From assembly GCF_003675855.1 (NCBI RefSeq), contig NZ_RCIH01000004.1, forward strand, positions 62,001-126,000: a stretch of 64,000 nucleotides of DNA. Reading direction: 5' to 3'. Origin of the DNA: Halostella salina (lineage in GTDB: Archaea > Halobacteriota > Halobacteria > Halobacteriales > Natronoarchaeaceae). A program made the position numbers and the translations under genes. The notes beneath the pieces were generated by a model. It was given only the letters and a program-made list of their open reading frames with translations. It was not told where the DNA came from and did no database searches. This document shows positions 19,214 to 64,000 of this stretch, one piece after another; within the stretch, counting starts at the first letter, position 1, and each line of letters begins with the position of its first letter.

Positions 19214-19286
19214 GCCCGGGTGGTGTAGTGGCCCATCATACGACCCTGTCACGGTCGTGACGCGGGTTCAAATCCCGCCTCGGGCG
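19214..19286 (+). tRNA. tRNA-Asp (GTC), copy 1
   Basis: A 73-nt cloverleaf. The acceptor GCCCGGG pairs with CTCGGGC (one G-U), discriminator G73. The anticodon stem CGACC/GGTCG encloses loop CTGTCAC with anticodon GTC. The T-arm is GCGGG-TTCAAAT-CCCGC. No intron and no encoded CCA. It is identical to the copy at 20046. Confidence 0.97.
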
Positions 19287-19327
19287 CTTTTGCGGCGAAC
19301 GGACGTGAGGAGCGATGCGACTGTACT

Positions 19328-19387
19328 GCGGGATTTGAAGCAGGGAGCGGCTTCGCCGCGACCGGGGTTCAAATCCCGCCTCGGGCG
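19328..19387 (+). repeat. Pseudo-T-arm tail behind tRNA-Asp copy 1
   Basis: GCGGGATTTGAA (19328-19339) is the exact inverse of TTCAAATCCCGC (19368-19379), a 12-bp stem around a core containing a GCGGCTTCGCCGC mini-hairpin. Bases 19365-19387 repeat the last 23 nt of the tRNA gene exactly. The same design recurs behind other tRNAs in this window. Confidence 0.8.
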
Positions 19388-19522
19388 TTTTCTGCCGACG
19401 TTAACCGGCGTGCGAAGCGAACCGTAGCGTCAGCGAATCGGCCCGTGAGAGATCCCTCTTACGAACTCCCGTCTCAGCGACCGTCCCGTGGTTCAAATAT
19501 CAGGACGCGACAACGCCGTTCC

Positions 19523-19942
19523 GTGAACGCATCACGTCGCGGTGACGAAACTGAGGCGGTCCTTCTGCAGCGGTTCCTCGACAGCGGCCTCTCCGTTTCG
19601 GTGCCGTTCGGCGATAGCGACCGGTACGACCTCGTCGTCGACGAACACGGCGAACTCTACAGGATGCAGTGCAAAACCGGGAACTGGGTGAACGGGACGG
19701 TCCGGTTCAACCTGTATACGTCTACGGTGACCTCCAACGGCCGGATGCAACGGGAGTATACCCACGAGGAAATCGACGCGTATGCGGTCTACTCCCCGGA
19801 GACTGCGACAGCGTACTGGGTCCCAGTCGGCGACACCGGAACCGGTGAGATGCGTTTGCGCGTCGAGGACCCGCATCCGAAAGCGCCGGCGTCCGCGATC
19901 AACTGGGCGGACGAATATACGCTATCCGACCGTTTCGGTTAA
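19523..19942 (+). CDS. Small PD-(D/E)XK nuclease-like protein
   Basis: About 139 residues from a GTG at 19523; a longer frame opens at 19445 but the similarity begins with the RRGDETEAVLLQRFL helix. The core reads VPFGDSDRYDLVVDEHG, then a YRMQCKTG strand, which fits the D...(E/Q)xK arrangement of the PD-(D/E)XK fold, as in group I intron-associated endonucleases and Holliday-junction resolvase-like proteins. The later NGTVRFNL and DAYAVYSPE segments also match that family. It sits alone between two tRNA-Asp copies, suggesting a selfish nuclease. Family assignment is from memory and cleavage activity is unproven. Confidence 0.72.
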   Translation: MNASRRGDETEAVLLQRFLDSGLSVSVPFGDSDRYDLVVDEHGELYRMQCKTGNWVNGTVRFNLYTSTVTSNGRMQREYTHEEIDAYAVYSPETATAYWVPVGDTGTGEMRLRVEDPHPKAPASAINWADEYTLSDRFG

Positions 19943-20045: not shown

Positions 20046-20118
20046 GCCCGGGTGGTGTAGTGGCCCATCATACGACCCTGTCACGGTCGTGACGCGGGTT
20101 CAAATCCCGCCTCGGGCG
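20046..20118 (+). tRNA. tRNA-Asp (GTC), copy 2
   Basis: A 73-nt gene identical to the copy at 19214, with anticodon GTC, acceptor GCCCGGG/CTCGGGC and discriminator G. It has its own upstream TATA-like element (20005-20014), so both copies may be expressed. Confidence 0.97.
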
Positions 20119-20159
20119 CTTTTGCGACGAACGGACGTGAGGAGCGATGCGACTGTACT

Positions 20160-20219
20160 GCGGGATTTGAAGCAGGGAGCGGCTTCGCCGCGACCGGGGT
20201 TCAAATCCCGCCTCGAGCG
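20160..20219 (+). repeat. Pseudo-T-arm tail behind tRNA-Asp copy 2
   Basis: Same structure as 19328-19387: inverted T-arm at 20160-20171, direct T-arm at 20200-20211, and a copy of the acceptor strand that has one change (ctcgagcg instead of ctcgggcg). The change would weaken acceptor-like pairing, so this tail is not under selection to act as a tRNA. Confidence 0.8.
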
Positions 20220-44599: not shown

Positions 44600-44733
44600 G
44601 ATGCAACCTCCCGGGTTGTGAACCGAGGCAAGCCGTTCCGGGTCGCTCGCTCCGTACGCTTCCCGGGCGTGCGACTCGCCGGGTGTGAATCGCAGTCGGG
44701 GCGTTTTCACTGCTCACTTCGTTCGCAGGAAAA
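44600..44733 (-). repeat. Decayed pseudo-T-arm tail behind tRNA-Phe
   Basis: On the minus strand, downstream of tRNA-Phe, bases 44600-44630 resemble the tRNA-Phe T-arm and acceptor 3' strand with several mismatches (cctcccgg and tgaaccg shared). Between them, text around 44670-44693 (gcgactcgccgggtgtgaatcgc) is placed like the inverted T-arm of the other tails and shares gcgactcg with the tRNA-Arg tail. The pattern is eroded. Confidence 0.5.
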
Positions 44734-44807
44734 TGCCGCCTCCCGGATTTGAACCGGGGACAGCTCGATCTTCAGTCGAGTGCTCTCCCAGTCTGAGCTA
44801 AGGCGGC
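44734..44807 (-). tRNA. tRNA-Phe (GAA)
   Basis: A 74-nt cloverleaf. Acceptor GCCGCCT pairs with AGGCGGC, discriminator A. Anticodon stem CTCGA/TCGAG encloses loop CTGAAGA, anticodon GAA. T-arm CCCGG-TTCAAAT-CCGGG. No encoded CCA, no intron. Confidence 0.97.
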
Positions 44808-58017: not shown

Positions 58018-58113
58018 CGTCCGGACGGCGATTTGAACGTGCCGAGACGGTCCGGGCCTGCGGCCTCGCTCCGCTCGGCCGGTCCGGACTGCGACTCGTC
58101 TGTTCAAATGCCG
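58018..58113 (-). repeat. Pseudo-T-arm tail behind tRNA-Arg
   Basis: Bases 58018-58039 are an exact 22-nt copy of the 3' end of tRNA-Arg (58172-58193). Bases 58102-58113 hold the inverted T-arm (gttcaaatgccg, one base short of perfect). The order on the tRNA strand is tRNA, inverted T-arm, core, direct T-arm plus acceptor, as for tRNA-Asp and the CAT tRNA. The stretch from 57927 to 58398 contains no protein gene. Confidence 0.75.
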
Positions 58114-58171: not shown

Positions 58172-58244
58172 CGTCCGGACGGCGATTTGAACGCCGGTCC
58201 CTGGCTCCGCAAGCCAAGAGGATAGTCCACTACCCTATCCGGAC
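58172..58244 (-). tRNA. tRNA-Arg (GCG)
   Basis: A 73-nt cloverleaf. Acceptor GTCCGGA/TCCGGAC, discriminator G. Anticodon stem TTGGC/GCCAG around TTGCGGA, anticodon GCG reading CGC/CGT. T-arm CGGCG-TTCAAAT-CGCCG. No intron or encoded CCA. It is convergent to the kinase gene. Confidence 0.95.
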
Positions 58245-62178: not shown

Positions 62179-63515
62179 CGCGCGAGCTCCCGCCCGTAGG
62201 CGTCGGCCAGCTCGGCCACCTCGTCGCCGACGAGCACGTCGTAGCCCGCCGATAGCTCGTCCTCGACGGCCGCGCCCAGCGCCACGTCGAACAGCGCGTC
62301 GCTCCGGAGGAACGCCGCGGCCGTCCGGTGGTTGCGCTCGCGCTCGACGACGTACCGGTCGCCGTCGACGAACGGCCCGTACGCCGCGCCCTCGGCGTAC
62401 TTGTCGTAGAACCCGGCGGCGTGGTCGCGGACGTGGACCGGCGGCCCCTCGTGGCGCTCGACGGACGGGCGCTCGGCGACGGCGAGTTCGGCGAACAGGA
62501 CGGCGTCGTCGGCGGCGAAGGCCGCGGAGCGGAGCACGTCGAACCCGCGGCGGTCGAGTTCGTCGGTCACGCCGGCGAGCGACTTGCGGAGCTGCGGGTA
62601 GAGCTGGTCCTCGACCACGTCCGGCGCGTCGAACCGTACCGCGACGGGCGTCGTCCCGCGGCGCTCGACGTGCTCGCGGACCGCGTCGGCCGAGAGCGAC
62701 TCCGGCGGATCGGGGAAGAACAGGTCGGTCCGGGGGTCGGCCAGCAGTTCCCGGGCGTAGTGCTGGACGCGGGCGACGTTGTCCTGCGAGAGCACCGCCG
62801 CGACGTTGCGCTCGGGGTCCGTCGGGTCGATCACGACGAGCGGGTCGCCGAACGTTGCCGTCCCGTGGTCCTCGGGGTCCAGCCGGACCGGCGGGTGCCA
62901 GTCGGCCGCCGCCTCGACGAACTCGCGGAAACCGCCGTACTCCAGTACGAGGAGTTCCGTGAGGTAGCCGCTGAACCCGCGAGTTCGGAGGTCGCTCCCG
63001 TACGCGTCGACCCCCTTCAGGAACTGCTTGGCGAGGCGGACGTCCGCGGTGCTGTCGTCGTCCAGTCGCTCGCGCAGGTACTCGGTGTGGAACGGCGTCC
63101 GGTCGACCGCGGACTGGATCTCGGTCGCCGATTCCACGTCGAAGCAGGGGACCAGATCCACGTCGAACCCGCGGAACTCGCCGGTGACGTAGGGGTGTTC
63201 GGCGTACTCCTCGTGGCCGTCGGGGAGGACCTCGTTCCCGACGCGGAGGCCGTACTCCTCGAGGGTCTCGCGGTCGAGGTCGGCCGGGAACCGGACGAAC
63301 ACGTCGATGTCGCGGTCGCCGCTGATCCAGGTGCCCCGCGCCGTGCTCCCGACGAGCAGGGCGTCGGCGTCGACGCCGATGTCCGCGACGGCCGCCTCGC
63401 TGCGCTCGACGAGTTCGTCCGCCGCCGCGGCAAGCCGCTCGCGTTCCTCGGGGTCGGGGTCTATCTCCTCGCGGACCGCCCGCGTCACCGTGCGGAACGC
63501 GTCGTCGTCGGTCAT
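62157..63515 (-). CDS. cca: CCA tRNA nucleotidyltransferase (archaeal class I)
   Basis: A 452-residue enzyme that adds CCA to tRNA 3' ends. The nucleotidyltransferase motif GSTARGTWISGDRDIDVFVR near residue 55 holds the two catalytic Asp residues, and FDVDLVPCFDV near 115 the third. All tRNA genes in the window lack encoded CCA, so this enzyme is needed. It lies next to tRNA-Asn and overlaps hdaI at the 3' ends. Confidence 0.96.
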   Translation of the reverse strand: MTDDDAFRTVTRAVREEIDPDPEERERLAAAADELVERSEAAVADIGVDADALLVGSTARGTWISGDRDIDVFVRFPADLDRETLEEYGLRVGNEVLPDGHEEYAEHPYVTGEFRGFDVDLVPCFDVESATEIQSAVDRTPFHTEYLRERLDDDSTADVRLAKQFLKGVDAYGSDLRTRGFSGYLTELLVLEYGGFREFVEAAADWHPPVRLDPEDHGTATFGDPLVVIDPTDPERNVAAVLSQDNVARVQHYARELLADPRTDLFFPDPPESLSADAVREHVERRGTTPVAVRFDAPDVVEDQLYPQLRKSLAGVTDELDRRGFDVLRSAAFAADDAVLFAELAVAERPSVERHEGPPVHVRDHAAGFYDKYAEGAAYGPFVDGDRYVVERERNHRTAAAFLRSDALFDVALGAAVEDELSAGYDVLVGDEVAELADAYGRELARYFSPSP

Positions 63516-63624
63516 CGGCCGCCGGTACTCGCCGTCGCGCCGAAAGCGTGTCGGTGCCCCGCGCCCTGCGGCGAAAACGAAAGCCCTATCAAATGCCCCG
63601 GCGCTACGAGAGAGTGACGACGGA

Positions 63625-63697
63625 GCCGCCGTAGCTCAGCTGGTAGAGCACCTGGTTGTTACCCAGGTTGTCACAGGTTCGAGCCCTGTCGGCGGCG
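63625..63697 (+). tRNA. tRNA-Asn (GTT)
   Basis: A 73-nt cloverleaf. Acceptor GCCGCCG/CGGCGGC, discriminator G. Anticodon stem CCTGG/CCAGG around TTGTTAC, anticodon GTT. T-arm ACAGG-TTCGAGC-CCTGT. No pseudo-T-arm tail is seen; instead a GCCGGCG-ctac-CGCCGGC hairpin lies at 63735-63752. Confidence 0.96.
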
Positions 63698-63734
63698 CTC
63701 CCGTTTCTTCCGCGACCGCTTCCATAGCCCGCCA

Positions 63735-63752
63735 GCCGGCGCTACCGCCGGC
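63735..63752. terminator. GC hairpin downstream of tRNA-Asn
   Basis: GCCGGCG at 63735-63741 pairs with CGCCGGC at 63746-63752 over a 4-nt loop. It may affect 3' processing or termination of the tRNA-Asn transcript. No T-run follows immediately. Confidence 0.35.
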
Positions 63753-63801
63753 CTGCGGAAACGATAGGCTGAAATGGACCGCCGGGGAACACGCGACTGT
63801 C

Positions 63802-63876
63802 GGGCCCTTAGCTCAGCCTGGTTAGAGCGCTCGGCTCATAACCGAGTGGTCGGTGGTTCGAATCCGCCAGGGCCCA
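63802..63876 (+). tRNA. tRNA with CAT anticodon (elongator Met or Ile2)
   Basis: A 75-nt cloverleaf. Acceptor GGGCCCT/AGGGCCC, discriminator A. Anticodon stem CTCGG/CCGAG around CTCATAA, anticodon CAT. T-arm GGTGG-TTCGAAT-CCGCC. Archaea have initiator, elongator Met and agmatidine-modified Ile2 tRNAs with this anticodon; the lack of an initiator-type terminal mismatch excludes the initiator, but Met and Ile2 cannot be separated with certainty here. Confidence 0.93.
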
Positions 63877-63916
63877 TCGAACCGCACCGCGGAGCGGTGC
63901 GTGTGAGATGTCGCGT

Positions 63917-63983
63917 GCGGATTCGAAGCAGGGAACGGAGCGCAGCGGAGTGACCGAGGTTCGAATCCGCCAGGGCCCATCGA
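63917..63983 (+). repeat. Pseudo-T-arm tail behind the CAT tRNA
   Basis: GCGGATTCGAA (63917-63927) is inverted perfectly at 63960-63970. Bases 63958-63983 repeat the last 22 nt of the tRNA plus 4 nt of flank (63855-63880) exactly, 26 bp in all. The core begins gaagcaggga, the same word found in the tRNA-Asp tails. Confidence 0.8.
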
Positions 63984-64000
63984 TTCTGCGACGAACGAAC

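Follow-up and report, generated by a model that had tools for sequence, protein, structure and literature searches.

Tail units with inverted and direct T-arm copies behind haloarchaeal tRNA genes as candidate inserted mini-cassettes

Small mobile repeats of Haloquadratum (SMR-A), about 110 bp long, are known to insert into palindromes (PMC3119063), and the SNJ2, pR1SE and HSTV2 integrase families are described, in a review on tyrosine recombinases of archaea, as restricted to Halobacteria (PMC8371274). An account of Haloferax gibbonsii notes partial tRNAs adjoining full copies (PMC7921747). Here we describe a short unit, called a tail, that lies directly behind the tRNA-Met(CAT) gene and many other tRNA genes of Halostella salina and its relatives. 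The window analysed is the whole 64,000-nt stretch at positions 62,001-126,000 of the forward strand of contig NZ_RCIH01000004.1 (assembly GCF_003675855.1; G000:C4:62001-126000 in our genome and contig notation), which belongs to a haloarchaeal genome of 3.74 Mb, and positions without a prefix refer to this window. We consider it somewhat probable that the tails are non-autonomous mini-cassettes that were inserted at the tRNA 3' end with duplication of tRNA nucleotides (nt) 54-73 and were mobilised in trans.

The tRNA-Met(CAT) unit and its anatomy

The host tRNA-Met(CAT) occupies 63802-63876 of the forward strand, on which all parts of the unit lie (called by ARAGORN; Rfam RF00005, 68.9 bits), and its nt 54-73 are 63857-63876. 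Immediately 3' of it, the unit segmentation places a first hairpin segment, H1 (63877-63916), which folds as a hairpin. Then follow an inverted T-arm, GCGGATTCGAA (63917-63927), complementary to the T-loop and 3' T-stem of the tRNA, a class I core hairpin composed of GCAGGGA, a variable stem and GACCGAGG (63928-63959), and a direct copy of nt 54-73 (63960-63979). The core assignment is based on segmentation, class I covariation and a 70.0-bit match to R1, one of two covariance models built in this work (R1 for class I and R2 for class II), at 63915-63971 (G000:C4:125916-125972). A sequence-only reading of this locus had described an 11-bp inverted T-arm and a 26-bp repeat of the tRNA 3' end, and both were recovered: 63917-63927 is a perfect inverted copy of 63960-63970, and 63855-63880 is repeated exactly at 63958-63983. 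Relative to the tRNA itself, the inverted T-arm that starts at 63917 forms 14-nt arms with 93% complementarity to 63854-63867. Two units stand here in tandem, of which this tail comes first; the other begins at 63980, occupies the remainder of the window up to 64000 on the same strand and has its class II core outside the window at G000:C4:126025-126098. An Rfam scan of 63500-64000 returned only two tRNAs above the gathering threshold and nothing that corresponds to the tail.

For the H. salina genome, in which 44 tRNA genes were identified, and for the two congeners G127 and G052, every tRNA flank was gathered. Segmentation covered 35 candidate units of the H. salina genome and 194 in all. 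The layout is fixed, running from the tRNA through the H1 hairpin, the inverted T-arm (the complement of nt 54-63) and the core hairpin to the direct copy of nt 54-73. H1 frequently begins with TTTCTGCG, the inverted arm has the consensus NNGGATTYGAA, and the core is either GCAGGGA, a stem and GACCGNGG (class I) or AGACGAGTCGCAG, a stem and GACCGTCTCGGC (class II). The direct copy corresponds to the host tRNA from T54 to N73. Its ends are well defined: the left end of the repeat block is sharp at T54, with a frequent 2-nt extension, GG, that is also the core terminus (76/130), and in 71 of 130 cases the right end lies no more than 1 nt away from where the tRNA ends; the modal length is 22-23. 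Ordinary units are 80-200 bp long and non-coding; they encode no enzyme, and an integrase would not fit into them. The inverted arm and the direct copy together make one long imperfect hairpin with covariation (score 0.269 vs 0.143 when shuffled; none of 500 shuffles reached it).

That each tail matches its own tRNA, as the sequence-only reading had proposed, was borne out in 117 units in which the pattern GATTYGA alone, independent of the host tRNA, served to find the inverted arm. The arm agreed with the host tRNA at base 57 in 96% of the units (50% in permutations), at base 63 in 88% (42%) and at base 64 in 62% (29%), and none of 5000 permutations attained the observed match at these three bases. 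Agreement with the own tRNA was also seen at base 62. Because the match weakens past base 64, the matched part of the arm covers approximately nt 54-63.

Several side observations concern the hairpins. A preference of the apical loops for GNA triloops of the DNA type seemed to stand out on visual inspection but was not used, the longest-stem counts being mixed (21 GNA vs 32 other three-base loops). In four tRNA flanks (L041, L010, L307 and L325), a third tail type copies only the last 13-14 tRNA nt, carries another hairpin (GACTGGCTCCACGCTCGCTC...GCGTGGATCCCGCC) and possibly represents a family of its own. A solo class II core (45.7 bits; G000:C5:232979-233051), with no T-arm copies and no tRNA close by, stands directly behind a gene read by eye as aspartyl-tRNA synthetase. 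Overlapping class I core matches with a spacing of about 48 bp at G134:C1:1679771-1679973 are apparently a short tandem core array.

Distribution and turnover of the tails

A tRNA was counted as tailed when the 300 bp downstream of it contained nt 54-73 in direct copy (at least 16/20) and nt 54-63 in inverted copy (at least 9/10). By this measure 20/43 tRNAs are tailed in the H. salina genome, and 10/42 and 8/44 in the congeners G127 and G052, respectively. In an archaeon from the same phylum but a different class, none of 31 tRNAs had both copies downstream, and the 300-bp upstream flanks held no direct copy in any of the four genomes counted. The contrast of 20/43 downstream with none upstream and 0/31 in the other class excludes chance. 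Among the matches listed for the 15-mer GATTYGAAGCAGGGA, the 16 with a tRNA nearby are all tails behind their own tRNA, and nearly all of these 16 come from named haloarchaea. R1 matched 139 of the 145 genomes of the class (55/58 genera), and two R1-negative genomes scanned with R2 gave seven matches (G141) and none (G128). In a phylum-wide sample, all 22 genomes with R1 matches belong to one order and every genome outside it was negative, a result to be read with the training of R1 on haloarchaeal units, which remote relatives elsewhere could escape. The sequence-only reading had regarded chance frequency, or an event limited to this strain, as fatal to its idea; across the 145 genomes, tails in haloarchaeal tRNA flanks are far above chance and are not confined to one strain.

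Such near-universality in the clade could also mean that the tail is an element maintained by the host, either a decoy attachment (att) site that shields the tRNA against integrating elements or a hairpin for transcription or processing, whose match to the tRNA would be kept by gene conversion and palindrome correction. The conserved hairpin pairing, the mobile elements located between tRNA and tail in two cases, and the stronger conservation of the direct copy (mean 0.94) than of H1 (0.69) or the core (0.78) between H. salina and G127 all agree with this explanation. However, at least half of the tRNAs in each genome examined are untailed, and orthologous tRNAs differ in the presence and copy number of units; the set of tailed tRNAs is not fixed. 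Compared with G127 and G052, H. salina has two units behind tRNA-Lys(CTT) where these congeners have none, one behind tRNA-Arg(GCG) where neither has any, and none behind tRNA-Pro(TGG) where each has one, while tRNA-Ser(CGA) has one, zero and one units, respectively. Of seven congeneric empty-site alignments inspected, two were clean, those of Pro(TGG) and Ser(CGA), and show that homologous DNA picks up again behind the unit; in the remaining ones the DNA behind the tRNA was too diverged.

Units also accumulate in arrays of up to at least four copies, as in the tRNA-Lys of G037 with four identical 111-bp units. At a strict threshold, 37 arrays contained two or more good copies; the copy closer to the tRNA was the better kept one in 13 of them and the more distant copy in 2 (p=0.007). 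Such array growth and distal decay suggest turnover, again at odds with a host-maintained element. Because the presence of the units is patchy, we regard a host role, whether as decoy att site or in processing, as quite unlikely, and for the putative regulatory or processing hairpin, one of two suggestions of the sequence-only reading, the patchy gain and loss likewise make an essential role unlikely. The other suggestion of that reading, that a miniature element duplicates the tRNA 3' end as it inserts, is well supported by the presence and absence among congeners, the sharp ends at T54 and N73, the distal decay and the identical cores behind different tRNAs.

Such sharing of cores is seen most directly in one 25-nt core that occurs behind Pro, Val(CAC), Val(TAC), Arg(CCT) and Gly(GCC) tRNAs in several genomes; more generally, unrelated tRNAs in different genera have core and H1 sequences in common. 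The same observation bears on local template switching during replication, which might create the direct-inverted-direct T-arm pattern anew at each tRNA. Template switching typically yields this order of repeats, and the T-arm is palindromic by nature; nevertheless, cores and H1 segments common to unrelated tRNAs go beyond local copying of a tRNA and contradict this explanation, which was rejected as barely credible. Homogenisation of cores within a genome was not supported either, as cores of the same genome were 0.57 alike, compared with 0.61 for cores of the same tRNA in other genomes.

Integrative elements and a possible route of insertion

If the tails are mini-cassettes, their insertion would leave the tRNA whole and place a second copy of nt 54-73 on the far side. 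Newcomers would enter beside the tRNA and push older units outward, which would generate tandem arrays with distal decay, whereas recombination between the 20-bp repeats would remove units. By pairing with nt 54-63, the inverted T-arm may guide a folded single-strand cassette to tRNAs with a matching T-arm. Since the cassettes encode no enzyme, the one needed for movement would be supplied in trans, and the units themselves would presumably be selfish. Insertion of a common cassette with a duplication made from the target is the simplest account of all these findings: the repeat would belong to the host in every case, and H1, the inverted arm and the core could have another origin. The unit behind the Pro(TGG) tRNA of G127 is a case in point: its inverted arm, CCGGATTCGAA, complements the Pro T-arm of other haloarchaea and not that of its own tRNA, while its direct copy is that of its own tRNA, a mismatch that fits a cassette arriving from outside and a repeat made from the target.

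Several points weigh against mini-cassettes mobilised in trans. The inverted arm is exact to the own tRNA over nine bases in just 18 of 36 units from three congeners, and vertical inheritance is clear for the Thr(CGT), Met and Gly(CCC) units of H. salina and G127. A mobilising enzyme was not identified, and none of the units was observed in free form; among the genomes compared, the closest of which are congeners, no single transposition event was caught between near-identical strains. Moreover, gene conversion instead of youth could keep the direct copies identical to the tRNA, and precise loss by recombination between repeats would look like gain. A bolder version of the idea, which we advance only tentatively and think rather doubtful, is that of a tRNA-anchored cassette system unlike any named, in which folded single-stranded hairpins pair with the target T-arm through the inverted arm, a haloarchaeal recombinase inserts them in order and duplicates nt 54-73, genes are carried occasionally, and up to half of the tRNA genes serve as array heads.

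Alternatively, the tails could be products of integrase att sites, that is, cargo-less or collapsed integrative elements formed by tyrosine recombinase crossover at the T-loop, with attP supplying nt 54-73 and thereby restoring the tRNA. The attB and attP of a T-loop-type integrase would have the block from T-loop to 3' end in common, and a crossover at T54 accounts equally well for the duplicated block. The tail hairpin is also loosely similar to the integron attC site (GTTCRAAY vs GTTRRRY). Furthermore, elements with an integrase of the IntSNJ2 type do enter tailed tRNAs. One of about 22.6 kb sits in the tRNA-Arg(TCG) of H. salina (G000:C5:32432 to about 55150). Its integrase, a relative of the SNJ2, HRPV9, HHPV4 and pHK2 enzymes, lies 130 bp away from the tRNA, and a tail unit follows just past the far end of the element (attR). 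In G104, a 74-kb element occupies tRNA-Val(CAC) (G104:C3:197012-271467), with a normal tail beyond it and, at its integrase-side end, a class II-like core that runs into T54 but lacks an outer inverted arm; a comparable core without inverted arm adjoins an integrase at C1:577.8 kb. On the other hand, four att sites of the IntSNJ2 family (Humcor2, Harhisp1, Halfgib1 and pHK2) match only the last 12-15 tRNA nt and have no inverted arm, core or hairpin alongside, and the known halovirus att sites were therefore rejected as the parent of the tails, with a block too short and no hairpin. In addition, on integration a donor's nt 54-73 would replace those of the host, and a core could not switch tRNAs without breaking them, which disagrees with the cores common to different tRNAs. 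No tail was found in viral contigs with the class I pattern (the class II pattern gave 44 matches, unfiltered), and a DNA similarity search of plasmids with one tail array gave no match. A search for an adjacent recombinase likewise found integrases near tails only where a separate element had inserted; apart from such sites, the PF00589 genes of the H. salina genome lie distant from tails. Taken together, we consider an origin from integrase att sites possible but rather unlikely.

If the tails are indeed mini-cassettes, nearly every haloarchaeon has copies, often at least 10, of an unnamed family of mobile DNA aimed at tRNAs, whose copy number differs among species. This would explain scattered 'partial tRNA' annotations, make a natural guide-pairing insertion system available for dissection, and bear on the way in which haloarchaeal tRNA loci turned into hotspots for proviruses and plasmids.

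Other tails in the window repeat the order of parts seen at tRNA-Met(CAT), as the sequence-only reading had stated for the tRNA-Asp and tRNA-Arg genes. On the forward strand, the first tRNA-Asp(GTC) (19214-19287; nt 54-73 at 19267-19286) is followed by an inverted T-arm (19328-19339), a class I core (19340-19367) and a direct copy of nt 54-73 (19368-19387); the second (20046-20119) has its own tail, with the inverted arm at 20160-20171 and the direct copy, with one mismatch, at 20200-20219. On the reverse strand, tRNA-Arg(GCG) (58172-58244; nt 54-73 at 58191-58172) has a tail with a class II core (58018-58113; R2 match at 58027-58113, 57.5 bits), the inverted arm of which is at 58112-58103 and the direct copy at 58037-58018. 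To these we add a degraded class II tail on the same strand (44612-44694), recognised from an R2 match of 74.7 bits and from the sequence, behind tRNA-Phe(GAA) (44734-44807). Within the window, tails are absent behind tRNA-Asn and tRNA-Val(TAC). Between the two tailed tRNA-Asp genes, which are adjacent also in G127 and G052, an open reading frame of 165 amino acids (19445-19942) encodes a PD-(D/E)XK endonuclease (PDDEXK_5, E=4.7e-34). Outside the window, behind tRNA-Tyr (G000:C4:324000-328500), a luciferase-like gene of 349 amino acids (PF00296) lies in the opposite orientation, with a partial unit on one side and, at +1.7 kb, another unit of the Tyr type on the other; this locus is possibly a gene-carrying cassette, the sole such case seen.

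Relation to described systems

The open literature searched, which mostly excludes subscription journals and makes any novelty provisional, holds no named description of the unit. The remark of the sequence-only reading that it knew of none thus stands for this literature, though the partial tRNA copies of H. gibbonsii are probably the same objects; the accessible part of that account (PMC7921747) does not describe the inverted arm, core, array or distribution.

Compared by description only, SMR-A resemble the tails in being about 110 bp long and non-coding, with inverted repeats, a strong preference for palindromic targets and a mobilising enzyme that is not known (PMC3119063). They differ in lying within IS605/PATE palindromes, with no target duplication and no tRNA link described, whereas the tails lie at tRNA 3' ends with a 20-nt duplicate. 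The tails also depart from miniature inverted-repeat transposable elements, since the pairing partner of the inverted arm is the tRNA block that was duplicated and not the other end of the unit; a related transposon was not searched for systematically. In CRISPR (clustered regularly interspaced short palindromic repeat) arrays and casposons, insertion next to an anchor with duplication of an anchor block would yield a tail-like layout. This layout is present in the tails; no enzyme was identified and no link to Cas1 is shown, and the units have a common core instead of unique spacers. Integron attC arrays share with the tails the tandem growth from one anchor, hairpins with an unpaired spacer and a core that starts with GTT, while the tails lack an integron integrase, are mostly gene-free, and have 20-bp host-specific repeats and a tRNA anchor.

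Elements of the IntSNJ2 type (XerC/D-like; SNJ2, HRPV9, HHPV4, pHK2 and Humcor2) are, like the tails, located at tRNA 3' ends, accompanied by a partial tRNA duplicate and restricted to the clade (PMC8371274). They encode an integrase, and the four att sites compared above comprise only 12-15 nt at the acceptor end, in contrast to the integrase-free tails with their block of nt 54-73, and they were found inserted between a tRNA and its tail. The tails thus have a target in common with IntSNJ2 elements and, given the cores at the ends of two such elements, may conceivably be remnants of them.
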